DNA from: an uncultured Bacteroidia bacterium
GTDB lineage: Bacteria; Bacteroidota; Bacteroidia; Bacteroidales; UBA932
NCBI GenBank assembly: GCA_902792815.1
Contig: CADBAY010000017.1
Location: 1 to 44,072 of the forward strand
Length of the DNA stretch: 44,072 nt
Direction of reading: 5' to 3'
Below the pieces are notes generated by a model. That model made no database searches, had not been told where the DNA came from, and saw only the letters and a list, made by a program, of their open reading frames with translations. Shown here in pieces: positions 362-17,655 of this stretch (position 1 is the stretch's first letter; every line of letters begins with the position of its first letter). The position numbers and the translations under genes are program-made.

Positions 362-2698
362 ATGATACTAAAGAATCTCAAAAGCCTGATACGTCGATAT
401 CCCGCGGCGGTGATACTGAACTTCACGGGCCTGGTGGCCGCATTCGTGGCGTTTGCACTGATCTTCCTGCAGGCCGATTATGAACTGTCTTTCGACAAAT
501 GTCATCCCACGGCGGACCGGGTGTTCCGGGCTGACAAAAAGGGCGACGAATCCCTCTTCCGGAACATCCTCCCGAGGGGTTTTGCCGATGATATTATCAG
601 TTCATCGGCCCACATCGAAGCGGGATGCACGGTGATGCCTTTTATGGGAGAAATCTATTTCTCCGTGGCAAAGGATGGCAGCATTCCTGCGGGCTACAAG
701 CGTGAACTTCTCTTCGTGTCGGAAGGGTTCATCGATGTCTTCGGCATCAAAATGGTTGAGGGTGATTCCCACGCATTGGAGGGGCCCAATTCCGTGATTA
801 TTCCCAAATCCCTGGCGGAGAATCTGTTCCCCGGGGAGCCAGCGCTGGGTAAACTGCTGAAGACGGATGCCAAGTATATGGAACTGCCACGGGAAGTCAC
901 CGTGACGGGTGTTTACGAGGACTTCCCGTCCAATACGCAATTGGGAAATGATCTGTATCTGACGGTTGGGGATATCCAGAAGGGTTCATACGGTGGAGCC
1001 AATTTCATCTGCTATCTGCTGCTGGACGATGCCGGCAGCGCAAAGGCCGTAGCGGAAGAATTCAACAGCCACTTCGACTTTGCTCCGCACGGGGACTGGC
1101 TTACGCCCATCGAACTGGTACCGCTGACAAGCATCTATTTCCGGAACGAGGGGAACGTCTATAAAAGCGGCAGCCGATCGCAGTTGCTTCTGCTGATTGC
1201 CATTGCCATCCTGATCCTGGCCATCGGACTCATCAATTTCACGAACTTCTATGTGGCGCTGACTCCGCTGCGCATCCGGAATATCAATCTGCAGAAGATT
1301 CTGGGCTCCTCCACGGCACGCTTGCGGGCACTGGTGGTAGCCGAAGCCGTCATCTGGTGCATCTGCGCCTTTGCGGTGGCCACCCTGCTGCTGGGACCGG
1401 TATCGGAAGCGCTGGCCACGCAGGGTGTGCTGATGCAAGCCTTTACGCTCAGGACGCAGTGGGGGCTTCTGGTGTTCGTCGGAACAGTGGCGCTGGCCAC
1501 GGGCATCATTGCCGGTATCTGGCCAGGCATCTATTCGACCTCCGGGCAACCGGCACTTATCCTCCGCGGAAACTATGGGCTGTCACAGTCCGGGAAGACG
1601 TTGCGCTCGGTGCTGGTGGGCGTGCAGTTTGTGGTCTCCATCGCCCTGCTTGTGTTCGTATTCTTCGTGCAGCGGCAGAGCCGCTTCATGAAGGAATATC
1701 CCTGCGGATACGACAAAAATAACCTGGCGGTGGTGAATATCGGCGGAGAGAACGGCCGCGAAAAGGCAGACTGGCTGCGGGAAAGGCTGTGTTCGCTTCC
1801 GGAGGTGAAGGATGTGGCCTATGCGAACGATTTGATTGGCGGCTCAGATTCCTATTCCACCGAGGGCGCCGATTTCGGTGATGGACAGGTGTCGATGAGT
1901 ATGATTTACTGCAGTTGGAACCTGCCGAAAGTACTTGGGCTGGAGCTGCTGGAAGGCCGTGATTTCAATGAAGGCGAGTTCGGCCCGATCCTGTTCACCC
2001 AGGACTTGAAGGCCCACGGTGCGGAACTGCGGGTTTATGCCGATGAATTTGGCGACGGAGCGCCTATTGTCGGCTTCATCAATAATGTGAATATCACCTC
2101 GATGCGAAAGGCTGATTCTCCGGTAGCCTTCCAGGTACACACCCGGAAGGCGCGCTCGATGCCGTTTGCCTATATCCGGCTGACGGAAGGCGCCGACCGC
2201 TTTGCGGCTGTTGACAAGATTCAGACCGTCCTGACGGAGATGGACCCGACGATGCCTTACGAGGTGCAGTTCTATGATGCTATCGGCAAAAACCTCTACA
2301 GTGGTGAAGAGCGACTGAGGTTAGCCGTGTGGCTGTTCTCGCTGCTGGCGGTGCTGCTTTCGCTGGTGGGTATCTGGGGTCAAGTGCTGATGGATGTCCA
2401 ATACAAACGGACGGAGATTTCCATCAAGCGGGTGATGGGTGCAGAGATTCCCCAGATTACTTCGGAGGGCCTGTGGATTTACCTGCGGACAGTGGCCATC
2501 TGTTATGTGATAGCAGCGCCGATCGGCTGGCTGATTGTGCGGTACTACCTGCAGCAGTTCTCGCACCGGGTGGGCTTCTCGCTGGGTGTGTTTGCCCTGA
2601 CGCTCATCATTGTGGTGGCTCTATGCGCCCTGGTTGTGCTGTCGCATTATCTGCGGGCAGCCAGGATGAATCCGGCCGAGGTGCTGAAGAAAGATTGA
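362..2698 (+). CDS. ABC transporter permease, FtsX/MacB_PCD doublet (778 aa)
   Basis: Full-length permease. An N-terminal membrane helix lies at about residues 13-36, followed by a large periplasmic MacB_PCD-like domain to about 270. Next come three helices of the first FtsX domain (about 275-400), another helix near 415-440, a second periplasmic domain, and a C-terminal FtsX domain (about 660-775) with the loop KRTEISIKRVMG and the ending ARMNPAEVLKKD. This doublet architecture of about 780 aa is usual for Bacteroidota exporters of the MacB class. The ATPase is not in the window and is probably upstream with the first permease. The ATG at 362 is 3 bases after the previous stop, which supports translational coupling. 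Substrate unknown. Confidence 0.9.
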   Translation: MILKNLKSLIRRYPAAVILNFTGLVAAFVAFALIFLQADYELSFDKCHPTADRVFRADKKGDESLFRNILPRGFADDIISSSAHIEAGCTVMPFMGEIYFSVAKDGSIPAGYKRELLFVSEGFIDVFGIKMVEGDSHALEGPNSVIIPKSLAENLFPGEPALGKLLKTDAKYMELPREVTVTGVYEDFPSNTQLGNDLYLTVGDIQKGSYGGANFICYLLLDDAGSAKAVAEEFNSHFDFAPHGDWLTPIELVPLTSIYFRNEGNVYKSGSRSQLLLLIAIAILILAIGLINFTNFYVALTPLRIRNINLQKILGSSTARLRALVVAEAVIWCICAFAVATLLLGPVSEALATQGVLMQAFTLRTQWGLLVFVGTVALATGIIAGIWPGIYSTSGQPALILRGNYGLSQSGKTLRSVLVGVQFVVSIALLVFVFFVQRQSRFMKEYPCGYDKNNLAVVNIGGENGREKADWLRERLCSLPEVKDVAYANDLIGGSDSYSTEGADFGDGQVSMSMIYCSWNLPKVLGLELLEGRDFNEGEFGPILFTQDLKAHGAELRVYADEFGDGAPIVGFINNVNITSMRKADSPVAFQVHTRKARSMPFAYIRLTEGADRFAAVDKIQTVLTEMDPTMPYEVQFYDAIGKNLYSGEERLRLAVWLFSLLAVLLSLVGIWGQVLMDVQYKRTEISIKRVMGAEIPQITSEGLWIYLRTVAICYVIAAPIGWLIVRYYLQQFSHRVGFSLGVFALTLIIVVALCALVVLSHYLRAARMNPAEVLKKD

Positions 2699-2794
2699 GT
2701 TGGCTTCATAAGCACAGTTAAACATAAATACTTTCTATCCGGATGCCAGGCGGGGCCTGGGAAGGTCCTGCCTGGTGGAAGGAGAAAAAAAGGT

Positions 2795-2802
2795 TATCTT
2801 TG
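2795..2802 (+). promoter_or_regulatory. Bacteroidota -7 box TATCTTTG ahead of the small lipoprotein gene
   Basis: Matches the consensus TAnnTTTG used by the primary sigma factor of Bacteroidota. The predicted transcript start near 2808 would give a leader of about 48 bases before the ATG at 2856. No clear -33 TTTG was found at the expected distance. Confidence 0.5.
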
Positions 2803-2855
2803 CAAGCAGTATTTCGGCCTTGTGTGTGTTTAATAAGAAAAAGAAAACGAAAGCA

Positions 2856-3263
2856 ATGAAGGTTCTGAAAACAATGATTATTGCAGTTCTGCTGGTGGCA
2901 GGGCTGTGCAGCTGTGAGAAACTTGATATGAGCAAACTGGAGGGTACCTGGTCTGAGCAGTATGATCCCGCGGTCTTTGCGATGGACGGCTCCGTGGAAT
3001 ACACCTTCGACGGGAACAATAATTACCAGCTCCACACTTATGATGCGCTGAGCGGCGAATCGCACGATTACAGCGGCAGGTATGCCATCGATCTGATCAA
3101 TAAAGGAACCATAACAATCAATCCGCAGATGTCGGACTACAGCAACGTCACTTATACCCTCGTCAAATTGACCTCAAAGGAGATGGTTTGGCAAAAGGAA
3201 GGAACGACGTATTCCGTGGGGACGTGGGGGTCGGACTATAGGCACTTTGTGAGGGTTAAGTAG
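2856..3263 (+). CDS. Small predicted lipoprotein, function unknown (135 aa)
   Basis: The chosen ATG starts MKVLKTMIIAVLLVAG followed by the lipobox LCSC, a clear type II signal peptide; upstream in-frame codons only add a non-signal leader. The mature part is about 115 residues, rich in polar and aromatic residues with beta-type spacing (GTWSEQYDP, YTFDGNNNYQLHTY, GRYAIDLINKGTITINPQ). It resembles the small lipocalin-like or META-like lipoproteins common in Bacteroidales, but I cannot assign a family. It has its own promoter-like box and a terminator hairpin downstream, so it is probably monocistronic. Confidence 0.75.
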   Translation: MKVLKTMIIAVLLVAGLCSCEKLDMSKLEGTWSEQYDPAVFAMDGSVEYTFDGNNNYQLHTYDALSGESHDYSGRYAIDLINKGTITINPQMSDYSNVTYTLVKLTSKEMVWQKEGTTYSVGTWGSDYRHFVRVK

Positions 3264-3291
3264 AATTCGGAAGATTATACGGAGAATGAAA

Positions 3292-3324
3292 ACTGCCGTC
3301 ATCCTGAATTGGGGTGGCGGCAGT
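3292..3324. terminator. Hairpin between convergent lipoprotein and amidase genes
   Basis: ACTGCCG (3292-3298) pairs with CGGCAGT (3318-3324) and the stem continues inward with CATCC/GGGTG. It sits between the 3' ends of two convergent genes, so it can serve both strands. Only a weak T-run follows. Confidence 0.6.
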
Positions 3325-3331
3325 GATTTGT

Positions 3332-3922
3332 TCAGATCTGAAGGTATTGTAGTATTCCATCGACGTGAAGGTTGACGATGGCCTGTTGGCCTTCTTCGCT
3401 GAGGAGGAAGGTGCAGTCGGGGTGGGAGTCCATGAAGAAGTTTTCGGTGAGGACGGCGGGGGCCGTGGTATGGCGTAGGATGTAAAAATCTGCTTCCATG
3501 TCCGGATCGCCGTCGGTGTAGTCGGTGCGGAGGCGCTTGCCGGGGAGGGTGGCCTGGGCGGCCTGGTAGAGGCAGGTGGCGAGGGCATCGGCCCGGGTGT
3601 TGCCACGGGAGGTGTAGGCGCACCAGCCGGTGACGTCGTACCAGCGGTCGCCGTGGCCGGCGGCGTTGGCATGGATGGAGATGACGATGACGTTGTCCTT
3701 GCCGAGCCGGCGGCACCAGGCATTCACGCGGCGGCAGCGTTCGGGCAGGGAGATGTCCCTTTCCTCCGGGACAAGGAGTTCGGCGTCGAGGCCGAGGGAG
3801 AGGAGACGGTCCACGATGCGGGCGGCGATGAGGCGGTTCCAGGCGTATTCCCGGAGCACTCCGTCGGGAGAGCGCTTGCCCGGCGTCTCGATGCCGTGGC
3901 CGTTGTCGATGAGGATTTTCAT
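3332..3922 (-). CDS. N-acetylmuramoyl-L-alanine amidase, Amidase_3 type (196 aa)
   Basis: Zinc hydrolase that cuts the amide bond between muramic acid and the stem peptide. The N-terminus MKILIDNGHGIETPGKRSPDG carries the first zinc ligand (DNGHG), an acidic position follows in the middle (EYAWN), a second histidine motif ISIHANAAGHGD comes next, and VLTENFFMDS near the C-terminus supplies the catalytic Glu. The protein is catalytic domain only, with no signal peptide or membrane segment. That is the pattern of phage or mobile-element endolysins in Bacteroidales rather than of the chromosomal AmiC type. It would need a holin or other export; a holin-like gene lies at 16917. Monocistronic, convergent with the lipoprotein gene. 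Confidence 0.88.
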   Translation of the reverse strand: MKILIDNGHGIETPGKRSPDGVLREYAWNRLIAARIVDRLLSLGLDAELLVPEERDISLPERCRRVNAWCRRLGKDNVIVISIHANAAGHGDRWYDVTGWCAYTSRGNTRADALATCLYQAAQATLPGKRLRTDYTDGDPDMEADFYILRHTTAPAVLTENFFMDSHPDCTFLLSEEGQQAIVNLHVDGILQYLQI

Positions 3923-4054
3923 GGCTGGTTTTTCGTTTAGGTTTCTGATTGTAAGTTACGAAAAATCAGCGAGAAAAGCAATGGGTATGGCGAGGGAGCA
4001 AACTTCGTTTTACCCCGTTAAATCCTATTGGACGGTACTGCCGAAAAGTTTTTT

Positions 4055-4062
4055 TAACTTTG
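4055..4062 (+). promoter_or_regulatory. -7 box TAACTTTG ahead of vsr
   Basis: Fits TAnnTTTG; the predicted transcript start is near 4068, about 15 bases before the vsr ATG at 4084. A TTG at 4028-4030 is a poor -33 match because it is 24 bases away. Confidence 0.5.
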
Positions 4063-4083
4063 TATTTGGAAGTCCCCAAAATC

Positions 4084-4620
4084 ATGGCCGATCGATTGAC
4101 AACAGAGGAGAGATCCGAATTGATGTCGCATATCCGCTCCGTGAATACGAAGCCAGAGATAGCGCTGCGGCGTGCCCTCTGGAGGCGTGGATTCCGGTAC
4201 CGTGTGAACGTCAAAGGCCTGCCAGGCTCCCCGGATATTGTACTGCCGAAGCACCGGACCGTGGTGTTCGTGCATGGGTGTTTTTGGCATGCACACAAGG
4301 GGTGCAAGATTTATCACTTACCGCAGACCAATACTGATTTCTGGCTGACGAAAGTGACACGGAACCAGGAACGTGACCAAGAAGTTTGGCGGCAGCTGGA
4401 AGCCAAGGGTTGGTCCGTGGTTATCGTTTGGGAGTGCGAGTTGGTGAAGGCCAAGTTTGAAGGCACCGTGGAAAGGGTGGCCAGTGAAATCCTCGAAGAT
4501 GGAAACCAATATAGGATACGTCAGCAAGAGCGCCGTACGGCGCGGGAGCAAAGGAGGCAGGAAAGGAAAGAGGCCGAAGCCCGGAGACTGGCGTTAATGG
4601 AGGAAATATCCTTACTCTGA
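4084..4620 (+). CDS. vsr: Very short patch repair endonuclease Vsr (178 aa)
   Basis: Nicks next to T:G mismatches that arise by deamination of 5-methylcytosine, starting very short patch repair. Counting from the chosen ATG (MADRLTTEER), residues fall where they do in E. coli Vsr: Asp51 (SPDIV), His64, Phe67, Trp68 and His69 in FVHGCFWHAHKGC. The TNTDFW-K-RN-RD block and VVIVWECEL also match. An ATG eight codons upstream (4060) is less likely because it overlaps the -7 box and spoils this numbering. The C-terminus has an extra strongly charged helix (RQQERRTAREQRRQERKEAEARR region, about residues 148-170). The natural partner is the C5 methyltransferase at 10083-11438. The 3' end overlaps the convergent nuclease-like gene by 9 bases. 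Confidence 0.93.
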   Translation: MADRLTTEERSELMSHIRSVNTKPEIALRRALWRRGFRYRVNVKGLPGSPDIVLPKHRTVVFVHGCFWHAHKGCKIYHLPQTNTDFWLTKVTRNQERDQEVWRQLEAKGWSVVIVWECELVKAKFEGTVERVASEILEDGNQYRIRQQERRTAREQRRQERKEAEARRLALMEEISLL

Positions 4621-5931
4621 AAAATAGTCCTCTGATTTCTTCTTCAGAATGTCAAATATTCCAGTATTGGCATCGGAGTCGTTGTCGACACCCTTGGCAG
4701 CGGAGAGCAACTTAGAGGCATTCCTGAGGTCAACATGAAGGGCGTCTCCTAATACCCTAAACACTTCCAACTTGGTTGCCTTATTTGCGCCAACTTCATC
4801 AACGAAGAACCCTGCTTCATACATTGCGTTGAACACGCGAAGCAAATCTGTATTTGAGAAAGAGCGCTTGTTAAAGAAGAGCCTGCTGTCAGAAACATAG
4901 CGAGGACTCATCTCTTCCTCTTGAGGCTCCTCCTCATCAGATTCAAGCTTAATAGGCCGAGAGGGCAAGCTTTCGCCTGGACGATGGATAAGTTTGTTAA
5001 TCCTATAGGAATTGGGCTCAAAAATCCAGTTACCGGATTTGAAGATCTCTTTGGCCGGGTTCTGGATGATAACCGGTTCATAGCCTTCCTTACTGATGCA
5101 GTCATCATCAACTAGATACAAGAAGTAAGAGTCTCCCATCACTTCTGCTTTGTCGATCTCATTGTCTGACCAGATAAAATGTTCTGCCCCCTTGTAAGTC
5201 TTGACTTCGATAAACCGGTCTGGCCTTTCGGACTCAACACTGTTTATGGAAATAATGTCAAATCCTGCAGATACGTCGATAGTGGAAATGCGCTGTATGA
5301 GAGATTGCTTTGTTGGCTCTGCAATACGTTTCTTTTCGTATTCCAAGACAAACAATTCGCCCCGTTCACCTTGTTCACGTTCGGCTTCAAGTTTGGCCAG
5401 AAGTTGCTTCTCAGTAATTTTCTTATGACGTTCAGGGATCTTGATTGCCCTGTCCAAAGCGCTGTTTACGAGATAGCGCGAATCCGCAAGCAAGGTGATG
5501 ACGCCATATTCTGTAAGGATATTTCTATAACAAGCATGCTTTGCCGGCTTAATCGTCGTTGAAGACATGATAAAGGCGTTCTCTGCAATGCTATATGAAA
5601 TGGTGTCGATGTCAATTATTTCCTCATCGAGGGCAAATTCCACGAAACGTTCGATAAACCATTCATCGAATGCATCTATGCCCCTGCGGTATTTTTCACC
5701 CAGTTGGTCATGCCCCTCGATGTAGTCGTCATGGACGATTTTCAAAAGGCCCATGGACTGGAAAAGCCACAAAATAGGCTCCACCTCTGAAGCATTTATG
5801 CCAACAGAACTCTGGGCCAATTGCTTCAGGGATTCGACCGATGTAGTGTTGTCTGAAAGCCAGCGCGCTACAAAGGCGATACCTTTCCTGGTACCTATTT
5901 TAGCGTACTTTTCGAGCCTTTCGTCTAACAT
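4612..5931 (-). CDS. NOV_C (DUF3883) domain protein, putative PD-(D/E)XK nuclease subunit (439 aa)
   Basis: Last gene of the five-gene minus-strand operon. The central-to-C-terminal part has the NOV_C/DUF3883 signature: GFDIIS at residues 223-228, then FIEVKT with Glu242 and Lys244, a Trp-Ser-x-Asn-Glu motif and a DSYFLYLV strand. This domain has a restriction-endonuclease-like fold, and Asp225, Glu242 and Lys244 are all present, so it is potentially catalytic. The N-terminal 180 residues are helical, with winged-helix-like segments that may bind DNA or partners. Its start overlaps the helicase gene by 32 bases, suggesting coupled translation and a joint complex. Role as the cleaving subunit is inference. 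Confidence 0.8.
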   Translation of the reverse strand: MLDERLEKYAKIGTRKGIAFVARWLSDNTTSVESLKQLAQSSVGINASEVEPILWLFQSMGLLKIVHDDYIEGHDQLGEKYRRGIDAFDEWFIERFVEFALDEEIIDIDTISYSIAENAFIMSSTTIKPAKHACYRNILTEYGVITLLADSRYLVNSALDRAIKIPERHKKITEKQLLAKLEAEREQGERGELFVLEYEKKRIAEPTKQSLIQRISTIDVSAGFDIISINSVESERPDRFIEVKTYKGAEHFIWSDNEIDKAEVMGDSYFLYLVDDDCISKEGYEPVIIQNPAKEIFKSGNWIFEPNSYRINKLIHRPGESLPSRPIKLESDEEEPQEEEMSPRYVSDSRLFFNKRSFSNTDLLRVFNAMYEAGFFVDEVGANKATKLEVFRVLGDALHVDLRNASKLLSAAKGVDNDSDANTGIFDILKKKSEDYFSE

Positions 5932-7861
5932 AATCGTTCAAAATCGCTTTAATATCGGCGTCTCCCTCATCTGTCGTATTCAGGAAGAGAGGGATAGGGG
6001 TATTCTCAATGATATCCATCATCCGGCGTTCTTTCTCACGTAAACGTGTATCGATGGTCTCATCAACTGAGTCTTCCGACAGGATGTAATAATAATTCGT
6101 GTCGGTGCCTTGGGGAAGGCCATAACGGTGGATTCTGTCTTTTGACTGAAGAAAATGAGCACAGTTGAAAGAACGCTCCAGGTAAATCGCATTATGGCAG
6201 GCCTTGTGCAGGGAAATGGATTCAGCAACCGCAAAAGGATTGGCAATGACTACCTTGAAAGAACTGTCCGCGCTATTAAACTCATTCACAATACCTTCAC
6301 GGGTGTTGACAAGTTCTTCCTCAGACATGTCCTCACTGGCCACAGGTGTGGCACCATATAGGACCTTGCATGCAATACCATTTTCTTTCAGGTACTCTTC
6401 AAGGCGTTCAATATTCTTGATAAATATTACCCAAATAATTACTTTTTCCCCCGTGTCAATAATCCTCTGGACGAGTTTCAGGCACTCCTCATACTTGGCA
6501 GGGACATGTTCGTCATAGAAACGCATGATGTCTTGCATAATGGCAGCGTCATCAGCCTCTATTGACGACAAGTCTTCACCCACTTCCTCGGAAAAAGAAG
6601 AAAGCGGCTCATTAAGAAGGGCAGGGTTAGTTGCGACCTGCTGCAAGCGTATCATTTTGGCGCGGACCAGAATGCTGTGTAAGGCGCTTTCTTTTGTCTC
6701 TTTATTAGCCTCCTCGATAAACCTTTCCTCGATAAAATCGTATATGCGACGTTGCGAGTCCTTCATCGGAACAATAATCGGAGCATTTTCCGTGGCCGGT
6801 GGAAGATTAAGGTCGCTCTTCCTGATACGGATAAAATAAGGGAAAATGTTGTCCATTAGTTTAGGCACCCTTGAATCATTATATGCCTTGGTCATTTCCC
6901 GTAACTGTCCGACATTGTATTTTATAACGTCATATTGAGGCCAGATAAAATGGAACAGGTTGTACAAATCCTCATACCCGTTGGGTGCCGGCGTACCGGT
7001 AAGGATTACCCTTGAACTGCACCAGCGGGACAAATCCATCACGATACTTGCGATAACACCGCCATTCGTGCTCTTCACTTTGTGGGCCTCATCAAGGACG
7101 ACCATCACCTTGTTATTGCGAAGGAAAAACTCCAATTCATCCTTCAAGGTAATGACTGACTGGTACGAAAGCAAAGTTAACTCTGAAGTCTCCCCGTAGA
7201 AATACTGTTTTTTCTGATCGGGGTTCATCTTTCCATTAATCCTCTGGCTGTCTACCTTGACACCAAAACACTCAAGGTATTCGTTTTCCCAGGGGCCAAA
7301 AGAACTAAGTGGGCCAATAATGAGAATCTTTTTGACCTGCTTCTCTGGATCATTGCAATACTTCAAATACGTGTATGCGCCGTAAACAATACTCGTTTTA
7401 CCGGCACCGGGTACTGAAAAATTGCACCCATTTTGTGAAAAGGCAAGATGATAGGCGGACAGGAGCTGAAGCGGATACAAATGACGGGCAGGCATATGCT
7501 CATCAAGAACTTCTGTGAACTCCTTGAATTCATCAGGGTTGCAATGATTCTCTTTGATATCTTTTGCCTCTTGGGAAAAGCGGGCAAAATTTTCCTCGCG
7601 AGTTTTAAAATCAGCAATGTCGGAACTTGTCTTTGCATCATATACAATTGTGGCCCCGATATACTCTGAAACGATTTTCAGTATCTCAGCCACCTGCTCA
7701 ATCCCTTCTTCGTTCTCTACGACAAGAGTGTCGCCCTCTTGTTGGTACGGAAGGTAGGAACGCAACATCATTTTTGAACGCTTGTTAGAGAGGAGTTCAC
7801 TTACAGCGCCCGAAATACGATATTTGTTACCCTCGATGAACGATATGATTAGTTCCGCCAT
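5900..7861 (-). CDS. SNF2-type DEAD/DEAH helicase/translocase (653 aa)
   Basis: Superfamily 2 ATPase. Walker A PGAGKTS is at about residues 151-157, motif Ia-like IIGPLSSFGPW at 180-190, Walker B DEAH at 257-260, motif III LTGTPAPNG near 288-296, and the C-terminal RecA lobe ends with SKDRIHRYGLPQGT, the SNF2-like motif VI. About 120 residues precede the ATPase core and may be a specificity or interaction domain. In restriction-type systems such proteins translocate on DNA and pass it to a nuclease; the adjacent overlapping gene encodes a NOV_C nuclease-like protein. The gene begins 5 bases after the ParB-like gene stops. It could alternatively remodel protein-DNA complexes. Confidence 0.88.
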   Translation of the reverse strand: MAELIISFIEGNKYRISGAVSELLSNKRSKMMLRSYLPYQQEGDTLVVENEEGIEQVAEILKIVSEYIGATIVYDAKTSSDIADFKTREENFARFSQEAKDIKENHCNPDEFKEFTEVLDEHMPARHLYPLQLLSAYHLAFSQNGCNFSVPGAGKTSIVYGAYTYLKYCNDPEKQVKKILIIGPLSSFGPWENEYLECFGVKVDSQRINGKMNPDQKKQYFYGETSELTLLSYQSVITLKDELEFFLRNNKVMVVLDEAHKVKSTNGGVIASIVMDLSRWCSSRVILTGTPAPNGYEDLYNLFHFIWPQYDVIKYNVGQLREMTKAYNDSRVPKLMDNIFPYFIRIRKSDLNLPPATENAPIIVPMKDSQRRIYDFIEERFIEEANKETKESALHSILVRAKMIRLQQVATNPALLNEPLSSFSEEVGEDLSSIEADDAAIMQDIMRFYDEHVPAKYEECLKLVQRIIDTGEKVIIWVIFIKNIERLEEYLKENGIACKVLYGATPVASEDMSEEELVNTREGIVNEFNSADSSFKVVIANPFAVAESISLHKACHNAIYLERSFNCAHFLQSKDRIHRYGLPQGTDTNYYYILSEDSVDETIDTRLREKERRMMDIIENTPIPLFLNTTDEGDADIKAILNDYVRRKARKVR

Positions 7862-7866
7862 GCTAA

Positions 7867-9171
7867 TTAATCCTTAATCGCATTCAAAACCTCCTTAAAC
7901 ACTGAATCCAATTCTCCCAGGTAATGGCGGATGGTATCCTTATCATTACTGGTGGCCAGTTTTGATTGGTCGATCTGGGAAAGAGCGCTAATGGCCCTCT
8001 TGATCAAAACGGAAGGTTTCTCCTTTTCTTTTTTATTCTCAATGGTAGTCTTTGCTTCAGCAAAGCCCTCGAGAAGTTTCTCTTGTACTTTCTCGCGCCA
8101 AAGCTGGTCTCGATTCTCCAGGAGGCGTTCTGAGTCGCCTGAACTGCGGGAATTGGCAAGGACCTCGTCTATAGATTGCTCCTCAACTCCAGTAGTGGCA
8201 TCTTGCCAGTCAGTTACGAACTTGCTCCAGACATCCTCGGAAAGCAAGAAGTTGTTTCCATTCGTAGATGCAATCAAACGATAATCAAAACCTTCTTGGG
8301 TCTTGGCATTAAGGCGGATAAAGTCAAAGCAAATGCATTTCAAGTCAACAATGACGGGCTTGACACGGTCTCCGGTAATCCAATTGATTTTGCCTCCTTT
8401 AACTCTATTGATGGCCTGATAGAGTTTTAGCATATCATCTTCGAATCCACGGGGCAGGCGAGTATAAATACCCGTGTATTCGTAGTTGTCGAGATACTCA
8501 TCTATGAGCTTCATCACTTCGAGCAGCTCTGTAACCTTGGCGGTTGATCCGAGGCCCATGTACTCCGCAATATCATCTGGGGCAAAGCCCTTGTTAATCA
8601 TATCACGTGCATGAAGGTACTTCTCGATAGGATTGTAGCCAACCTTCTCGTCAGCACCCATCTGATAAGTGGTCTCCAGTCGAAGGATCTCCTTTTCGTT
8701 TGCGTCTTCAGGCAGTACGACACAACGGAATTTATTACAACGGGCACGCTGCTCAGGAGTATACTTTGCTGTATCCTTGCGGATAGCCAACATCAAAGAT
8801 GCACGGCGGTTACCATCCACGATAACGCCATCGCTTGTAATAATGCCAGTTTCGAGTTGACCATTATCAGCAATGCTCTTCTTAGTCTTCTCATTTGCCT
8901 GTTCATTAGAATCAAACAAGAATTGAGCAATCTGCTGTGCATCGTTTGGGCGCTCCGGGTCAAGTGAACTACGCTCTCTCTCGAACGATTTGACCATACT
9001 GGCTATGCGGCCGTTCTCCACGTTGAACACGAGGAGTTCGATAGGAATTTCATACTCAATGAAAGTCTTTACCTCGCCACAATAGCGGAGCCTCTTGCCT
9101 TTGCCGTCCGGACTATAAATGTCCCCCTTTGTTATTTCGGCAATTTTCTTTTTGCGTTCTTCTGCCTGCAT
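7867..9171 (-). CDS. ParB/Srx-fold N-terminal domain protein in defence operon (434 aa)
   Basis: The N-terminal half shows the ParB-type nucleotide-binding core: a stretch with a preferred-value loop (IADNGQLETGII), then VDGNRR at residues 118-123, corresponding to the GxRR box of ParB/Srx domains, followed by RASLMLAI. The middle contains a helix-turn-helix-like segment (FAPDDIAEYMGLGSTAKVTELL). The C-terminus is a long charged helical region (about 345-434) with coiled-coil character. Chromosome-segregation ParB is shorter and sits with ParA; here there is no ParA and the neighbours are a methyltransferase and a helicase. A DNA-sliding or nuclease-loading clamp role, or an Srx-like ATPase role, is possible but unproven. 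Confidence 0.8.
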   Translation of the reverse strand: MQAEERKKKIAEITKGDIYSPDGKGKRLRYCGEVKTFIEYEIPIELLVFNVENGRIASMVKSFERERSSLDPERPNDAQQIAQFLFDSNEQANEKTKKSIADNGQLETGIITSDGVIVDGNRRASLMLAIRKDTAKYTPEQRARCNKFRCVVLPEDANEKEILRLETTYQMGADEKVGYNPIEKYLHARDMINKGFAPDDIAEYMGLGSTAKVTELLEVMKLIDEYLDNYEYTGIYTRLPRGFEDDMLKLYQAINRVKGGKINWITGDRVKPVIVDLKCICFDFIRLNAKTQEGFDYRLIASTNGNNFLLSEDVWSKFVTDWQDATTGVEEQSIDEVLANSRSSGDSERLLENRDQLWREKVQEKLLEGFAEAKTTIENKKEKEKPSVLIKRAISALSQIDQSKLATSNDKDTIRHYLGELDSVFKEVLNAIKD

Positions 9172-9176
9172 GTATC

Positions 9177-10076
9177 TCAGATGTTATAGAATTCTGTAAT
9201 AATGTCTTCAAGTTGATCCAGGGTTTTAAGCGTCAGGAAATAATCGCTACAACCATAGACACGATCCCAATCCGCGCCTCTAACCAACCATCCGGCGCCA
9301 TCAAGGAGTGAGAGCATTTTTATGTCCTCATTACCTTGGACCATCCTGCGGATTTCGGTGATTTTGTCGGCATGGTCCGACTGGCCTTTTCCTGTTGTCA
9401 CGCTGTATTGGTAATTCACGACGATATATTTTTCGGTGTCATGAATCAAGTCAAACAGCTCTTTGTTGCCACCGGGAATCTGCCTTTTCTCATAATGAAG
9501 GTGATATTTGTCCGTTATGGAGCGTATCTTCTCATTTACTCGGTTAGCGTATGCCTGGGTGATTTCCTTGTTGTACTTGGTCGAACAAGTTGATTTGATT
9601 TGGCGGCCAAGTACATCATCGCTGCATATACGGGCAATAACCTCAGAATCGATGTGGAAATAATTGAGGATAAATGCCGGTATAATTGCCTGATACTTGG
9701 GAAGATTTCTTCCATTCAGGAGCAATTCGCAAAACTCATCCATCAAAGGTTGATTCTCAATCAAGAGCTTGCGGAGTGCTGTGTCTGACCATTCAGTGGT
9801 AAATACATACCCCTTGTTAAAGCGGATAAGAGAAATCACCCTCTTAAATCGCTCGCCCGAAAGGCCAAGTATGGTGGTAAGGCGCTCAATGGCATTCTCA
9901 TCCGAACGGATGTATTTCTCCAAACCTTCTTTAGTGGAGATGCCAAGCATTGAATTCTGGTATGAGGCAAGTTCGGAAGAAACTTTCTTCTTATACTTGT
10001 TCTCTGTTTTTTCGTCGATGAGGAACATTGTGATAGCTTTCAGCGCATCGTCCTTATTAAGCTTACCTGTACTCAT
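9177..10076 (-). CDS. DpnII-like restriction endonuclease-family protein, probably catalytically altered (299 aa)
   Basis: The C-terminal third resembles DpnII/MboI-type endonucleases: FDLI with Asp209, a strand YIVVNYQY where the family has I-E-x-N-F-Y, a downstream Lys230 in TGKGQSD (family GGSK), and LLDGAGWL (258-264), like the conserved DG-GW strand. The acidic residue expected two before Asn221 is Val219, so the PD-(D/E)XK centre lacks its Glu. The N-terminal 200 residues are helical. It follows the methyltransferase by 6 bases, the usual place of a cognate restriction enzyme. It may be a dead recognition subunit, or active with a relocated residue. Family assignment is from motif reading only. 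Confidence 0.65.
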   Translation of the reverse strand: MSTGKLNKDDALKAITMFLIDEKTENKYKKKVSSELASYQNSMLGISTKEGLEKYIRSDENAIERLTTILGLSGERFKRVISLIRFNKGYVFTTEWSDTALRKLLIENQPLMDEFCELLLNGRNLPKYQAIIPAFILNYFHIDSEVIARICSDDVLGRQIKSTCSTKYNKEITQAYANRVNEKIRSITDKYHLHYEKRQIPGGNKELFDLIHDTEKYIVVNYQYSVTTGKGQSDHADKITEIRRMVQGNEDIKMLSLLDGAGWLVRGADWDRVYGCSDYFLTLKTLDQLEDIITEFYNI

Positions 10077-10082
10077 ATGCTT

Positions 10083-11438
10083 CTACTTTACATCGATTAC
10101 ATCCAATAAACGTCCAGCAACGGCCTTGATGACAGGGACGCAAACAGAGTTTCCAATCAAGTCATAACCCAATTCTGTGGCCTTGGGGCCATCCTCAAAT
10201 GGAGCCAAGGAGTAAGACTCTGGATAACCGAACAGACGTAATCCCTCCCTCAAGGTAAGATGTCTTATACCATCGCCATCCACAACACCAATTGAGGTCA
10301 TATCAGTTGCGACGAGAGTGTGGGAAATCCTTTCGGTATCCAAGAAAGCGCTGAATTCAAAGGAAAGCTTTCCGGTAATGATATTGTAGCCCATCGGCAA
10401 GGACTCAACAGCCTTCCGTTCTGTCCATGTTGTTCCGTCCTCCTCATGGTGGACAACTAAGTTTTTGGGGTATTCCAGTCGCAAATACTTCTTTGCGCAG
10501 AGATCATCCAGCATTTCCTGAAGATTGGGAACATCATGGAAAGTTCGAATCTGTTCCGTAGTCAAGGGCATGCCATCTTTCCAGACAATCCCAATAATGT
10601 CTGCCCATGCTTTTTTACGACGCTCTCGGAGAATTGCATTAAGTAAATCCCTCTCTTCTGGGGTAGCAGCACCACGGGCATCAATATCCCAACTATGGAA
10701 GTTCCTGGCACCGCCACGTTTGTCATTGAGTGATTTGCCCACCATATCTTTTGCATCGTAGACGGAAAGCAGCCTTTTGGAGAACTCGCTTTCGAGAGTA
10801 GGCTTTCCGTGCTCAAGGATCTCGCCAACCATTACCCGCGGCAGAGGAGTGAAATTGAGGTCAATTTTACCGAAACGCTTCTTGCAACCAACGATATAAA
10901 CACGCTTGCGTCTTTGGGGAACTCCGAAATCTGCTGCATCGAGAACTACATATTCAGCATTAAATTTCAGTTTGTCCCTTAAAACTTTCATGATGATCTT
11001 GATGGTTCGCCCCTCCTTGTCTTGGGTTGAAGCCCTGTCGTGCAGTACAAGACCTTCAACATTCTCCAGGAGGAACCCGTCAACACCACGAAGTTTGTCA
11101 GTAAGGATTCTCTCGACCTCAAAGAAGAGAGTTCCGCGAGTGTCGGCAAAGCCTTTCCTGGCACCGGCAGAGCTAAAAGCCTGACAGGGGAAGCCGCCGA
11201 GCAAGACCTTGAAGTTAGGGATGTCTTCACTCTTTACAGACGTGATGTCCGTAGGGCGGATGTCCTCACCCGGGAAGTTATGGTTGAGAGCTGTGATTGC
11301 CGCTGCTTTGATTTCAGAAGTGAAAACGCAGCGGCCTTTTAGGCCACGTTCTGCAAGCGCCTGTTGGAATCCTAAACGAATACCGCCCAGGCCGGCAAAC
11401 AAGTCAATGAAATCGTATGTTTTCTTGGTCTTAGCCAT
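10083..11438 (-). CDS. dcm: DNA (cytosine-5-)-methyltransferase (451 aa)
   Basis: Transfers a methyl group from S-adenosylmethionine to C5 of cytosine at a specific site. The motifs are in canonical order: I, FIDLFAGLGGIRLGF (10-24); IV, GGFPCQAFS with nucleophile Cys85; VI, LLENVEGL (123-130); VIII, QRRKRVYIVG; IX/X, LRLFGYPESY and GNSVCVP at the C-terminus. The target-recognition region (about 215-375) is long, so the site cannot be predicted by eye. First gene of the operon; a -7 box lies about 136 bases upstream. The leader holds two hairpins and an inverted repeat that covers the start codon. Vsr at 4084 is the expected repair partner. The symbol is used generically, not to imply CCWGG. 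Confidence 0.93.
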   Translation of the reverse strand: MAKTKKTYDFIDLFAGLGGIRLGFQQALAERGLKGRCVFTSEIKAAAITALNHNFPGEDIRPTDITSVKSEDIPNFKVLLGGFPCQAFSSAGARKGFADTRGTLFFEVERILTDKLRGVDGFLLENVEGLVLHDRASTQDKEGRTIKIIMKVLRDKLKFNAEYVVLDAADFGVPQRRKRVYIVGCKKRFGKIDLNFTPLPRVMVGEILEHGKPTLESEFSKRLLSVYDAKDMVGKSLNDKRGGARNFHSWDIDARGAATPEERDLLNAILRERRKKAWADIIGIVWKDGMPLTTEQIRTFHDVPNLQEMLDDLCAKKYLRLEYPKNLVVHHEEDGTTWTERKAVESLPMGYNIITGKLSFEFSAFLDTERISHTLVATDMTSIGVVDGDGIRHLTLREGLRLFGYPESYSLAPFEDGPKATELGYDLIGNSVCVPVIKAVAGRLLDVIDVK

Positions 11439-11472
11439 TGTACACTGTGTTATTCATACAAGCCGTACAATG
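11436..11472. promoter_or_regulatory. Inverted repeat overlapping the methyltransferase start codon
   Basis: CATTGTAC (11436-11443, containing the start codon on the minus strand) and GTACAATG (11465-11472) are a perfect 8-bp inverted repeat with a 21-base spacer, i.e. two helical turns. In RNA the start codon would be paired. A related repeat TTGTA/TACAA lies at 11560-11576 on the -7 box. Confidence 0.45.
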
Positions 11473-11528
11473 CCCTCGCAGGGCATAATTTGCCCCTTCG
11501 TGCGCCCAATTCTCCCAGTAATGGGAGA
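11471..11528. repeat. Two short hairpins in the methyltransferase leader
   Basis: TGCCCT-CGC-AGGGCA at 11471-11485 and TCTCCCA-GTAA-TGGGAGA at 11511-11528 are perfect stem-loops of 6 and 7 bp between the -7 box and the start codon. They may be attenuator or protein-binding elements; neither has a good T-run on the minus strand. Confidence 0.45.
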
Positions 11529-11573
11529 GTCATCATTTGGAATGCTTGATATGTACTGCTTGTATATTGACTA

Positions 11574-11581
11574 CAAATTTA
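11574..11581 (-). promoter_or_regulatory. -7 box (TAAATTTG on minus strand) for the methyltransferase operon
   Basis: The plus strand reads CAAATTTA. It matches TAnnTTTG on the minus strand and is the only such match upstream of the operon in this intergenic gap. No -33 TTTG at the right distance. The inverted repeat TTGTA(11560-11564)/TACAA(11572-11576) overlaps it and could be an operator. Confidence 0.45.
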
Positions 11582-11630
11582 ACTTTTTTCCGTTGATTTT
11601 AATAATCTTTAGTTTGTTAGAGTAAGAAAA

Positions 11631-11659
11631 GGCCCCGTTATCTCCCGGATAACGAGGCC
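11631..11659 (-). terminator. Rho-independent terminator after the HTH/52-aa gene pair
   Basis: The stem GGCC-c-CGTTATC pairs with GATAACG-a-GGCC around loop TCCCG, followed on the minus strand by TTTTC. It lies 10 bases past the stop of the 52-aa gene and separates it from the methyltransferase operon. Confidence 0.8.
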
Positions 11660-11669
11660 GTTGGTTGTG

Positions 11670-11828
11670 CTAACCTGTAGTTTTCTTTTTCCTCTTTTCT
11701 TCCTTCCTACGCCTCTCCTCCAGGCCTTTTTTGATAGACGGGCAGCGCCTCAGGGTTTTCCCGAAATCGTCATCGGGTTTTTCGGCAATATCCAAAAGAA
11801 TATCCCGAATGCTTCTCGGCTCTTTCAT
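11670..11828 (-). CDS. Small basic protein coupled to the HTH gene (52 aa)
   Basis: The reading frame starts MKEPRSIRDILLDIAEKPDD and ends with a very basic tail (EERRRKEEKRKKKTTG). Its ATG overlaps the stop of the upstream HTH gene as ATGA, the classical sign of translational coupling, and a terminator follows directly. That context is the main evidence for a real gene. There is an acidic-hydrophobic first half and a lysine/arginine-rich second half. No family is recognised; nucleic-acid binding or partnership with the HTH protein is a guess. Confidence 0.6.
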   Translation of the reverse strand: MKEPRSIRDILLDIAEKPDDDFGKTLRRCPSIKKGLEERRRKEEKRKKKTTG

Positions 11829-12118
11829 CGCTTACCTCCTTTTATCATCCATTTGTCTATTTCGGGCCGAAAGAACCCAAACAATTTGCCGCACCGGTGG
11901 AAAGGGATTGTTCCACTGTGAATCCATTCGTACACAGTGCATTTCGCAGGATGCCCTGGGAGATACTCGCAGAGTTCAGTGATGTCCATCCACGGCGAAA
12001 AACCGCCGTAGGTCGTGTTGGTCTCTATCAGGGAACGTAGTTCTCTGACTTCGGAGAGGAGTGTGGCAACCGCCTGGGGGAGGTTGTCGAATGTAATGGC
12101 TTTTTCTGTTTTGTCCAT
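11825..12118 (-). CDS. Helix-turn-helix protein, excisionase/MerR-like (97 aa)
   Basis: The C-terminal half contains MDITELCEYLPGHPAKCTVYEWIHSG, then IPFHRCGKLFGFFRPEIDKWM, the layout of helix_turn_helix_17 / excisionase-like winged-helix proteins common on Bacteroidales mobile elements: an HTH choosing a module, followed by a strand pair ending in a conserved D-W-M. The N-terminal 40 residues form a likely coiled coil (LPQAVATLLSEVRELRSLI). I chose the ATG at 12118; a GTG three codons upstream (12127) is also open. It probably binds DNA as a regulator or architectural factor; with no integrase nearby, excisionase activity cannot be assumed. Confidence 0.8.
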   Translation of the reverse strand: MDKTEKAITFDNLPQAVATLLSEVRELRSLIETNTTYGGFSPWMDITELCEYLPGHPAKCTVYEWIHSGTIPFHRCGKLFGFFRPEIDKWMIKGGKR

Positions 12119-12176
12119 TGCTTTCACTTGTTAAGTTTGACAATGGCTTCTTGTTTTGTGGCCACAGAAAAAGAAA

Positions 12177-12201
12177 CCAGATCTCCGTCGTGGAAATCTG
12201 G
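12177..12201 (-). terminator. Terminator hairpin after the DUF6371 gene
   Basis: CCAGAT-c-TCC pairs with GGA-a-ATCTGG around GTCGT; on the minus strand it is followed by GGTTTCTTTTTC, a U-rich tail. It lies about 50 bases past the DUF6371 stop codon. Confidence 0.6.
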
Positions 12202-12250
12202 CTCCAAGGTAGTGATTATTACATGGTCCGACTTGGAGTCCAATTGGAGT

Positions 12251-13378
12251 CTAACCTGTTTTTTCTTCCGTTTCCTCCTCAATCTTCTCCACCCCCACAA
12301 ACTCCAGATCCAGGTCGTGGATGAGCGCCCGTATCTCTTCGTGGATCTCCGGAGAGAAGTACTGTGCTACATCGGCGAAGGTGGCTTCGGCGCGGGGATT
12401 GGGTGTCCGGTGCCAGCGGATGAGCCAGTCGGCTATGTCGATGTGGTCGATCCGGTCCTGCTCGGTGCCGTGCTTCTGGAGGAGGTCGGCCACCTTGATG
12501 CCCAGCTCCGGGAATTCCGCGGCTTTCTGGCACCAGGTCTCGTAGCCGTCAATGTCCGGGAAGGCGGTGATGGAACGGCCCTTTAGGACGTTCAGCCGGG
12601 CATTGAGCTGGGACTTGCCGCCGGTGGCGAGCCAGAGGAACTTGGGGATGAGTCCGGCGCAGATGACGGCCGTCTTCTCAGATTCGACGAGGGCCACGGG
12701 CTTCTCGGGGAAGAGGGGCAGGAGGTGTTCGCCGAAGAGGCACTGGCTGAGCTGCCATTCCTGGGGAAGCTGGCCGGAGTATTTCATCAGGGAGTGTACC
12801 CAGGTGATGCGGCCTTTGGTGTTCTCGTCTTTGATGCGGTGGCCGGTCTCGGGGTCGTATTTCATCACCTTGCCGGTGCGTACGCGGCCCTGGATGTCAA
12901 TCTGGTAGAAGATGACGGCACGGTCACGGGTGACGCCGAGGCGGTATTCATCGACCAGGCCTTCGAGGATGATGGGGTCGAAGATGGTGGCGAGGAAGCG
13001 GGTGAAGTCGCTGTGGACGGAGGGGCGCAGGCTCTTTGCCACGATCTCGGCCGGTATGGTGTCCACCTTGTCCACTTGTCCACAGGGGTGTACGGGTGGA
13101 CATGGGTGGACGCTGCGCTGGAGCCACTCCGGGGCTTTGCGCCAGTCTTCGCCCGACGGACGGGCCTCCGGATGGTCCCGGAAGTATTCCCGGGGCGTGT
13201 AGTGGTAGTTGCAGGAGGATTCGTGGTCGCATCGGCCAACGGTCTCGTGCAGGAATTCTCCTTTGGCGTCGACGTATCGGGTGAAGGAGTGCTTTGCGCC
13301 GCAGTTTGGGCAGGTGTAGCGGCTTGCAGGGCCGGTGTAGCGCTGCAGGGAGTAGTTGTATTCGTTTGCATTGCTCAT
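12251..13378 (-). CDS. DUF6371 family, zinc-ribbon/primase-like protein (375 aa)
   Basis: The N-terminus carries a zinc-ribbon pattern (Cys23-x2-Cys26, then Cys50 and Cys56 with nearby histidines), as in DnaG-type primases. The middle has a toprim-like core: VALVESEKTAVICA (about 230-243) and TAFPDIDGYETW, which keeps the E and D-x-D spacing of toprim domains. The family is widespread on Bacteroidales plasmids and integrated elements next to RepA-like ATPases, as here. The likely role is replication initiation or priming of the element. Between zinc and toprim parts is a low-complexity VHPCPPVHPCGQVDKVDT segment encoded by TGTCCAC repeats that recur in the neighbouring gene. Its start is 3 bases from the RepA-like stop. 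Confidence 0.75.
   Translation of the reverse strand: MSNANEYNYSLQRYTGPASRYTCPNCGAKHSFTRYVDAKGEFLHETVGRCDHESSCNYHYTPREYFRDHPEARPSGEDWRKAPEWLQRSVHPCPPVHPCGQVDKVDTIPAEIVAKSLRPSVHSDFTRFLATIFDPIILEGLVDEYRLGVTRDRAVIFYQIDIQGRVRTGKVMKYDPETGHRIKDENTKGRITWVHSLMKYSGQLPQEWQLSQCLFGEHLLPLFPEKPVALVESEKTAVICAGLIPKFLWLATGGKSQLNARLNVLKGRSITAFPDIDGYETWCQKAAEFPELGIKVADLLQKHGTEQDRIDHIDIADWLIRWHRTPNPRAEATFADVAQYFSPEIHEEIRALIHDLDLEFVGVEKIEEETEEKTG
13058..13111. repeat. TGTCCAC repeat cluster inside the DUF6371 gene
   Basis: Three TGTCCAC units (13060, 13069, 13077) are followed by two inverted GTGGAC units (13096, 13106). The 18-bp block GGTGTCCACCTTGTCCAC at 13058-13075 is repeated exactly at 13418-13435 in the next gene, in the same reading frame (VDKVDT). 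Confidence 0.75.
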
Positions 13379-13381
13379 TGG

Positions 13382-14744: not shown

Positions 14745-14771
14745 TTTTTTGATGATTAAGAGTTAAACAAA

Positions 14772-14787
14772 ACACAACCGGTTGTGT
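14772..14787. promoter_or_regulatory. Perfect 16-bp palindrome, probable operator
   Basis: ACACAACCGGTTGTGT is a perfect palindrome lying between the predicted transcript start (near 14806) and the start codon of the DUF3853 gene (14744). Position and symmetry fit a repressor binding site for a homodimer. Confidence 0.6.
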
Positions 14788-14810
14788 CGGAATTATCCGT
14801 AGCGCTGGAA

Positions 14811-15080: not shown

Positions 15081-15112
15081 AATCAGAGATTTACGAATAA
15101 AAGGCTTAAACT

Positions 15113-16165: not shown

Positions 16166-16166
16166 T

Positions 16167-16910: not shown

Positions 16911-16916
16911 TGCCTT

Positions 16917-17653: not shown

Positions 17654-17655
17654 CC

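Follow-up and report, generated by a model that had tools for sequence, protein, structure and literature searches.

A ParB-like protein, an SNF2 ATPase and a NOV_C nuclease encoded together in a candidate ATP-dependent restriction-modification operon

The enzyme CglI fits none of the usual restriction-modification (R-M) types and requires NTP hydrolysis (excerpts of PMC5737866; PMC4267653). According to the same excerpts, CglI and NgoAVII resemble the locus described here in joining a methyltransferase to a separate nuclease and a helicase-like ATPase (PMC5737866, PMC4267653). The MORC/paraMORC R-M operons were predicted to combine SWI2/SNF2 or other SFII helicases with mostly cytosine methylases, Vsr and restriction-fold nucleases (Iyer et al, 2008; PMC2292703, in part). 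However, those operons are centred on GHKL ATPases, and ParB has 0 occurrences in that text. The DUF3883 (NOV_C) domain, found in R-M operons in fusion with SNF2, has been termed a novel REase domain, but the fusions in the excerpt form one polypeptide accompanied by an AAA-HEPN protein (PMC3710099), whereas here the two domains are encoded by separate genes together with ParB. Lastly, GmrSD, BrxU, SspE and DndB are examples of a ParB-superfamily nucleotide-binding fold in DNA-targeting defence; these are of the DUF262 or DndB types, in contrast to the present protein, which matches a ParB N-domain and, after it, a ParB HTH. No published description of the present operon was found among the literature matches listed.

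The locus lies in a 44,072-nucleotide stretch of DNA from an uncultured Bacteroidia bacterium, which we refer to in its entirety as the window. Its features are as follows.

10083-11438, minus strand: C5 methyltransferase, 451 aa, with PCQ Cys85 and ENV 125-127 (ORF plus Pfam/NCBIfam match).
9177-10076, minus strand: DpnII/BanI-like protein, 299 aa, predicted restriction-enzyme fold.
7867-9171, minus strand: ParB-like protein, 434 aa, with a ParB N-terminal nucleotide-binding domain, an HTH domain and a helical C-terminus.
5900-7861, minus strand: SNF2-family SF2 ATPase, 653 aa, likely DNA translocase.
4612-5931, minus strand: NOV_C (DUF3883) nuclease, 439 aa, likely cutting subunit, with a C-terminal extension of ~120 aa.
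4084-4620, plus strand: Vsr T:G mismatch endonuclease, convergent; alternative ORF start TTG at 4060.
5900-5931, minus strand: overlap of the SNF2 and NOV_C genes, 32 bases.
11512-11527, no strand assigned: inverted repeat of 16 bases with 6-base arms upstream of the methyltransferase gene, possible operator.

The ORF coordinates confirm the arrangement given in an earlier note on this DNA, namely five co-directional genes with gaps of 5-6 bases, a 32-base overlap and a convergent vsr. The gaps in the minus-strand run are 6, 5 and 5 bases in the ORF list, and vsr overlaps the end of the NOV_C gene by 9 bases. The G+C content is 43-48% in the five minus-strand genes, 55% in vsr and 56% in window positions 19000-44072. 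The inverted repeat upstream of the methyltransferase gene is a possible operator: both of its arms differ in a related locus (L057) with complementarity retained, in a comparison of two sequences only. Farther upstream of the operon, Pfam places an AAA_25 ATPase at 13382-14482. PHROGs and Pfam assigned no family to the ORFs on both strands at 15083-18384, so an integrase could not be demonstrated; similarly, exact repeats of the tRNA-Phe region of at least 11 bases were absent from window positions 2001-6000, and we therefore do not claim an att pair.

None of the libraries searched returned an already described system. CglI/NgoAVII was rejected because the PLD plus B3 R-protein domains are absent from the six window proteins (Pfam, E up to 0.1); as for the NTP-dependent cleavage and translocation that characterise those enzymes, the SNF2 motifs of the window protein are conserved at the sequence level. 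Alignments of the SNF2 protein with ZorD and DrmD cover the helicase core. Matches of the methyltransferase include DrmMII (149 bits), DruM (127 bits) and numerous Type II methyltransferases. DISARM, Zorya and Druantia differ, however, in that the window has ParB, NOV_C and DpnII-like subunits instead. DISARM was rejected since DrmB and DrmC are absent among the PADLOC matches listed for the six proteins (for the methyltransferase, the best 25 of 62), and DrmA and DrmD were matched via the helicase core only. In the case of Zorya, ZorA and ZorB are absent among the PADLOC matches listed and the ZorD matches are restricted to the helicase core (NF041790, 48.6 bits against a cut-off of 1500). 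Type I and Type III R-M were rejected on the grounds that HsdS, HsdM and Mod are unmatched by Pfam in the six window proteins. The earlier note had reported Type I HsdS, Type III Mod and DISARM drmB as lacking, and in Pfam and the PADLOC matches listed there are indeed no such matches.

The methyltransferase matches Pfam DNA_methylase at 215 bits (above the cut-off) and TIGR00675 at 280 bits, its closest solved relative by sequence is M.HhaI, and Cys85 and the ENV motif are conserved in all 87 aligned rows, the window counted in. The cognate methyltransferase expected of a Type II R-M system is thus represented by a presumably cognate enzyme of the C5 type with conserved motifs. Longer methyltransferases (at least 520 aa) carry a C-terminal extension of ~200 residues that matches none of the DpnII-like, NOV_C, ParB or shorter-methyltransferase profiles, and for this reason we do not claim it as a substitute for the DpnII-like protein. 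Vsr belongs to its family by both Pfam (104.9 bits) and TIGR00632 (144.3 bits against a cut-off of 97.85), and is found near 22 of 77 ParB-anchored genome loci.

The SNF2 protein matches SNF2-rel_dom at 88 bits (above the cut-off) and Helicase_C at 29 bits; it also passes the ResIII cut-off of 22.5 with 27.8 bits, a score far below its SNF2 match. Its Walker A Lys155, DE 257-258, Gln572 and Arg579 are conserved in 92/92 rows, and it is likely to act as a DNA translocase. The NOV_C protein (NOV_C, 48.5 bits, above the cut-off) retains a PD-(D/E)XK-like set of residues, E192, E199, D225, E242 and K244, in 76/77 rows and is likely to be the cutting subunit. Most of its 24 aligned relatives stop near residue 314. 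The SNF2 and NOV_C genes overlap at 64 of the 67 loci where their distance was measured, the median gap being -26 bases. The alignments also show that the residues singled out beforehand, Cys85, Glu242 and the Walker A Lys (Lys155), had been named correctly. When the ParB, DpnII-like and NOV_C family profiles were run against PDB sequences, only chance-level matches emerged.

At the limits used, the ParB-like protein itself is unmatched by Pfam, PADLOC and PHROGs, and among 60 relatives (E up to 0.01) ddrB-ParB was found in three and HTH_ParB in two. Its assignment rests on predicted fold and aligned motifs. The AF2 model (pLDDT 90.1) was matched by Foldseek to KorB, Spo0J, Noc and pNOB8 ParB-N with a probability of 1.00, target TM-scores of 0.48-0.59 and a best E of 4.2e-4. 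A profile alignment with chromosomal ParB spans the three motifs and the HTH (E 2.8e-4, probability 41%); the canonical ParB set comprised 16 of 30 fetched loci, namely those whose protein is 270-350 aa long and contains a GERR word. Together, Foldseek and the profile alignment identify the N-domain plus HTH fold of the ParB family. With regard to the CTP binding and clamp closure at parS that define ParB, the boxes are conserved, but the Asn position of ENxxR is Thr in 90/100 rows, a point against the clamp role proposed below.

The gene set recurs across several phyla, as a neighbourhood survey anchored on ParB revealed. Gene counts were taken up to 6 kb from ParB at 77 genome loci, of which 54 have at least 5 kb on either side. 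These 54 well-flanked loci contain the methyltransferase in 54 cases, SNF2 in 51, NOV_C in 48, Vsr in 14 and the DpnII-like gene in 13, such that methyltransferase, ParB, SNF2 and NOV_C are the most recurrent core. Among the exceptions, L132 and L133 have ParB plus methyltransferase only (the L133 match being short, 63 residues), L110 is without SNF2 and NOV_C, and L116 has neither NOV_C nor a MutH-type substitute. Some loci in which NOV_C was undetected (L006, L119 and L120) carry a protein of a cluster with a MutH domain in its two tested members. The survey scanned genome contigs with two peptide patterns, so distant members were missed; L029 was excluded from the architectures as its ParB ORF was not found by profile. 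The DpnII-like gene is present at 23 genome loci. Ten of them show the same gene order as the window (some truncated, split or with an intervening ORF), 11 have the methyltransferase gene on the opposite strand, downstream, and two were too short to judge.

Mobile elements also carry the set. All five families occur together in Streptococcus phage Javan191 and in 8 of 20 viral-collection loci, several of the others being cut by contig ends. Scanning viral contigs with the window ParB-like protein alone gave no matches, indicating that an alignment is needed to detect these relatives. In the plasmid collection 71 records match the ParB-like protein, 0 of them over 80% of its length, and in the phage collection five match, one over 80% of the length. 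Closer to the window the protein is present in 1/61 close relatives, namely the window's own genome, and in 3/295 genomes of its class, the window's own counted.

Sequence distances between the families are strongly correlated: r is 0.93 for ParB-SNF2, 0.92 for SNF2-NOV_C, 0.96 for SNF2-DpnII-like (21 loci) and 0.73 for SNF2-methyltransferase, and in each of the 10 family pairs 0 of 999 permutations reached a value as high. Short or missing ORFs were excluded, which left, from 77 loci, 74 for ParB, 70 for SNF2, 63 for NOV_C, 71 for the methyltransferase and 22 for the DpnII-like family. Since the HMMs scored the very loci used to build them (E up to 1e-5), near-copy loci are included and the correlations take no account of a host tree, these values are compatible with both cassette co-inheritance and common descent.

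The DpnII-like protein stands apart from this core. By sequence it is kin to DpnII and BanI: DpnII was matched by 21/21 family members and RE_BanI by 18/21 (E up to 0.01), and the family profile aligns with a BanI homologue (probability 94, E 1.2e-7). The window copy matches DpnII only, with 20.1 bits for PF04556, below the curated cut-off of 23. Its AF2 model (pLDDT 89.6) has BstEII as top PDB match (E 1.8e-5), with a poor superposition and a TM-score of only 0.30. Its relationship to BanI, like the BstEII fold match, would point to a target site of the GG...CC type.

Such a protein, with a predicted restriction-enzyme fold and a gene adjoining that of the methyltransferase in the window, might be the nuclease of an ordinary Type II system, with ParB, SNF2 and NOV_C accessory or unrelated. 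We consider this unlikely, given that the catalytic D/E pair is found in 0/30 distinct operon copies (identical sequences collapsed) compared with 6/6 relatives outside such operons and both reference enzymes. Here BanI was represented by one homologue (L176), L175 having yielded no ORF under the filter; the outside relatives come from 11 DpnII-matching genomes, of which seven had their neighbourhoods inspected, and L186, with an operon-family match of only 20 bits, is not among the six. The first catalytic Asp, lost in 29/30 copies, is the only broadly lost acid. The second is Asp in 25/30, as the (D/E) motif allows, and in the window copy an Asp lies one column off within a shorter hairpin, so residual activity is possible. 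Moreover, the DpnII-like gene is missing from 41/54 well-flanked loci, and SNF2 and NOV_C are both kept in 35 of these 41. All 24 rows that have a DpnII-like gene, the window among them, group together in the ParB tree (99/96), and the gene thus looks like the addition of a single branch; elsewhere the site would have to be read by other means. The subunit is probably a catalytically dead enzyme that would serve as target reader. The part of recogniser foreseen for it in the earlier note may stand, but for one branch only and probably without catalysis.

Taken together, these results favour a model in which the operon is an ATP-dependent R-M system with ParB-like, SNF2 and NOV_C subunits and a probably dead DpnII-like reader; we put its probability at roughly 0.6. 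The C5 methyltransferase would mark target sites in host DNA, and unmodified targets would be recognised by the DpnII/BanI-like protein, its catalytic acids eroded. As a nucleotide-gated clamp or loader, the ParB-like protein, which has a ParB nucleotide pocket and an HTH, would engage the DNA at the site or close to it. The SNF2 motor would spend ATP to travel along the DNA, with cleavage by NOV_C triggered by stalling of the complex or by its encounter with a second one. Vsr would repair T:G mismatches arising from 5mC deamination. This fits the division of labour first proposed for the locus (the methyltransferase marks, the ParB-like and DpnII-like proteins recognise, the helicase and NOV_C degrade), and the active sites of the methyltransferase, SNF2 and NOV_C are intact. 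Of three outcomes named in the earlier note as counting against that proposal, two, a lack of co-occurrence in other genomes and a one-to-one match to a described system, run contrary to the occurrence of the set across phyla and the lack of a named-system match in the libraries searched.

The same proteins might instead form an abortive system, in which NOV_C damages the host chromosome once infection upsets the balance of methylation and sensing. Conserved nuclease residues beside a methyltransferase whose loss would presumably expose the host are consistent with this, and the present evidence does not tell it from direct restriction; nevertheless, the presence of a methyltransferase dedicated to the system speaks for discrimination between DNAs, and we regard an abortive role as improbable. 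Also quite improbable is a modification-dependent, Type IV-like activity, in which modified phage DNA is the target of ParB-SNF2-NOV_C, with the methyltransferase standing apart. Although GmrS and SspE, of the ParB/Srx fold, come from systems that have modified DNA as their target or signal (excerpts of PMC10952713), the methyltransferase is near 54/54 well-flanked loci and its distances are correlated with those of the other genes. A non-defence module for mobile-element maintenance or partition, using a ParB homologue and an SNF2 ATPase, is very unlikely despite the ParB fold and the relatives on plasmids, phages and viral contigs, as ParA is unmatched by Pfam/NCBIfam in the operon proteins and in three proteins encoded upstream, and the nuclease and methyltransferase have conserved residues and are both present in most loci.

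Returning to the ATP-dependent R-M model, distant ParB-SNF2 pairs adjoin Type III or N6/N4 methyltransferases, and one of them (L024) has Mod and a Res-like protein adjacent, which suggests that the cassette may be portable. We tentatively suggest that a ParB-type clamp and an SNF2 motor might define a separate restriction class, a portable cassette with NOV_C or another nuclease that is paired with C5, N6/N4 or Type III modification, and from which one branch recruited a catalysis-stripped Type II enzyme as sequence reader. If correct, this would add a restriction machine of several phyla that is unnamed as a system in the profile libraries used (PADLOC 2023), and would link the study of ParB DNA clamps with that of restriction enzymes. 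A natural example of the conversion of a Type II restriction enzyme into a recognition subunit would come with it, for which the relatives outside such operons that carry the catalytic pair would be direct controls.

ORF calling bore out the five minus-strand genes and the convergent vsr at 4084-11438 that the earlier note had proposed as a composite modification/restriction system, together with their spacing: intervals of 6, 5 and 5 bases, then 32 bases shared by the SNF2 and NOV_C genes. The vsr and NOV_C genes also overlap, by 9 bases. The family labels largely stood: the methyltransferase, SNF2, NOV_C and Vsr proteins scored above the Pfam and NCBIfam cut-offs, but the DpnII match fell slightly below, and neither database gave an accepted family match for the ParB-like protein. 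The SNF2 protein also matched ResIII, and the methyltransferase matched DrmMII and DruM. All five minus-strand genes (G+C 0.43-0.48) are A+T-richer than window 19000-44072 (0.56), unlike vsr (0.55).

A scan with the single ParB-like protein gave no match, and alignments were then used instead. These recovered 20 loci in the viral collection, 8 of them with all five families together, and 77 genome loci; the records are labelled as Bacillota, Bacteroidota, Patescibacteria lineages, Chloroflexota, Pseudomonadota, Campylobacterota, Actinomycetota and Chlorobiota. The 77 genome loci contained, no further than 6 kb from ParB, the methyltransferase in 75 cases, SNF2 in 73, NOV_C in 68, the DpnII-like gene in 23, Vsr in 22 and a MutH-type cluster in 5; for the 54 loci flanked by 5 kb or more on each side, the respective counts were 54, 51, 48, 13, 14 and 5. 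Conversely, a scan anchored on SNF2 gave 28 loci; a ParB match lies within 6 kb in 23, including two weak matches of 22 bits, and is absent from the other five. Its high-scoring contigs were mostly common to the ParB scan, and the four unshared ones (L043, L045, L046 and L056; SNF2 216-231 bits) all contained ParB, L046 and L056 looking like near-copies. Conservation of the five-gene order, to which the earlier note had looked, held in part: the window's order was found in 10 of the 23 DpnII-like loci, including some that are truncated, split or have an intervening ORF, but in 11 the methyltransferase lies downstream on the opposite strand, and two were too short. The SNF2-NOV_C gap was negative in 64 of the 67 loci where both gaps were measurable. 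Computed without host-tree control, distance matrices were correlated for all ten family pairs (0/999 permutations as high), with r 0.93 for ParB against SNF2 divergence over 69 loci.

The related loci fall into the following arrangements.

Type A: methyltransferase (about 450 aa), DpnII-like, ParB, SNF2, NOV_C
Type B: longer methyltransferase (520 aa or more), ParB, SNF2, NOV_C
MutH-type cluster beside ParB-SNF2, without NOV_C: loci L006, L119 and L120
MutH-type cluster along with NOV_C: loci L088 and L112

The C-terminal extension of the Type B methyltransferase comprises about 200 aa and showed no detectable relationship to the other proteins of the system. A MutH domain was present in the two tested members (L006 and L088) of the MutH-type cluster. 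ParB and SNF2 remain paired where other genes change. At L024:4915-13058, a distantly related ParB-SNF2 pair comes directly after a Type III Mod (EcoP15I-type C-terminus) and a Res-like protein, and loci L025-L027 show these clusters in a comparable order; in L030 and L046, ParB, SNF2 and NOV_C have N6/N4 methyltransferases nearby. Since the modification enzymes beside it are so varied, the ParB-SNF2 pair looks portable between them.

Several accessory features were also seen. Two clusters recur near the methyltransferase of type-A loci and are possibly a control pair: HTH_3 regulators in 18 loci and Peptidase_M78 (IrrE-like) proteins in 20 (Pfam labels from one member per cluster; example L011:6757-7796, about 20 loci). 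At L090:15499-16335, L110:11198-12010 and L132:11262-12089, members of one cluster come after the ParB-like protein; the tested one, from L090, looks alpha/beta hydrolase-like. On a Lactiplantibacillus plasmid (L006:5512-8100), SNF2 has an N-terminal extension bearing an HxK...GSxN pattern that by eye resembles a PLD motif.

An AlphaFold model of the ParB-like protein, built from an alignment of 60 such proteins, was confident (pLDDT 90.1). Its best ten matches among solved structures, each at probability 1.00 (E 4.2e-4 to 0.02), were to RK2 KorB, Thermus Spo0J, Noc and pNOB8-like ParB N-domains; the target TM-scores of 0.48-0.59 indicate that the match is limited to the N-domain and HTH. In a profile comparison with chromosomal ParB (16 sequences from the window's relatives), the N-terminal motif, G-x-R-R box, E...PIE box and HTH aligned in order, with E 2.8e-4 and a probability of only 41%. 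Pfam matched ddrB-ParB in 3 and HTH_ParB in 2 of the 60 relatives, and Asn53, Arg55, Asn121, Arg122, Glu166 and Gln170 were invariant over 100 aligned rows. The predicted fold, ordered motifs, Pfam matches and invariant residues uphold the ParB label, and the protein is predicted to be a ParB with an HTH, not a bare ParB/Srx domain.

At E-values up to 0.01, all 21 scanned members of the DpnII-like family matched DpnII and 18 matched RE_BanI, whereas the copy in the window matched DpnII alone; the family profile gave probability 94 (E 1.2e-7) against a BanI homologue and 49 (E 1.7e-4) against a DpnII homologue. The model (pLDDT 89.6) had BstEII as top structural match (E 1.8e-5, probability 1.00), with poor superposition (TM 0.30, rmsd 21.7). 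Outside the operons, six relatives in other Bacteroidota genomes scored 100-116 bits with the family profile; their neighbourhoods had no match to the system's ParB, SNF2, NOV_C or methyltransferase families, and in all six at least one tested neighbouring ORF was an N6/N4 methyltransferase. Both catalytic columns (Asp, Glu) are retained in these six and in the DpnII and BanI reference sequences, and the pair is retained in no operon copy (30 distinct copies). Among these, 23 have Ser and one (L063) has Asp at the first column; at the second, 25 have Asp, 3 have Asn (the window among them), 1 has Lys and 1 has Met. The operon protein is thus probably catalytically dead, a wording we prefer because Asp is chemically permitted at the second column and in the window protein an Asp occupies a column adjacent to the first. 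Since it keeps the family signature but not the catalytic pair, its most likely remaining role would be sequence reading. A 76-row ParB tree places the window and the 23 loci that have a DpnII-like gene in one group (support 99/96). At L015:4990-5904 and L065:4990-5904 the DpnII-like sequence is divided between two ORFs (97 and 198 aa), the remaining genes being present.

ParB was detected in 1/61 close relatives and in 3/295 genomes at class level, both counts including the window's own genome. A 15.3-kb block of L057, a Bacteroidia MAG, shares 86.7% identity with window 3354-18654; on the window's side this match stops within the tRNA-Phe gene (18642-18715), a possible integration site, and no tRNA was found in L057. 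Streptococcus phage Javan191 has the whole set, although its methyltransferase match falls in two overlapping ORFs (L004:5154-6613), which suggests that the gene is broken. IMG/VR contigs also carry relatives, as do Enterococcus plasmids (in the one examined, L007, profiles find the ParB-SNF2 pair only), and a Lactiplantibacillus plasmid has the methyltransferase, ParB, SNF2, MutH-type protein and Vsr. Upstream of the window's methyltransferase lies an inverted repeat (11512-11527) whose arms change together in L057. An HTH_17/excisionase-like protein is encoded at 11825-12127 (NCBIfam MADS MAD1 model 57 bits, below the cut-off of 80), and further upstream are DUF6371 and AAA_25 proteins, like a mobile element.

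The remaining active sites are well conserved. The methyltransferase Cys85 and ENV are retained in 87/87 rows, the SNF2 Walker A Lys, DE, Gln572 and Arg579 in 92/92, and NOV_C E192, E199, D225, E242 and K244 in 76/77, the exception being one divergent row. NOV_C, with these residues kept, is the near-universal predicted nuclease; DUF3883 is already termed a REase domain in a passage of PMC3710099. In the literature searched, which lay outside subscription journals, supplements and REBASE, we found no description of this gene set. Passages of PMC2292703, PMC3710099, PMC12839542, PMC10853773, PMC10952713, PMC12458937, PMC10609329, PMC3874165 and PMC3459991 describe related parts but not the set. 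From the available text of PMC5737866, CglI/NgoAVII is closest in mode of work, but all of its restriction subunits differ. We envisage that the methyltransferase would provide the mark, ParB would load, the SNF2 motor would move and NOV_C would cut, with Vsr repairing deaminated 5mC. We file the system among the R-M systems, as a variant.
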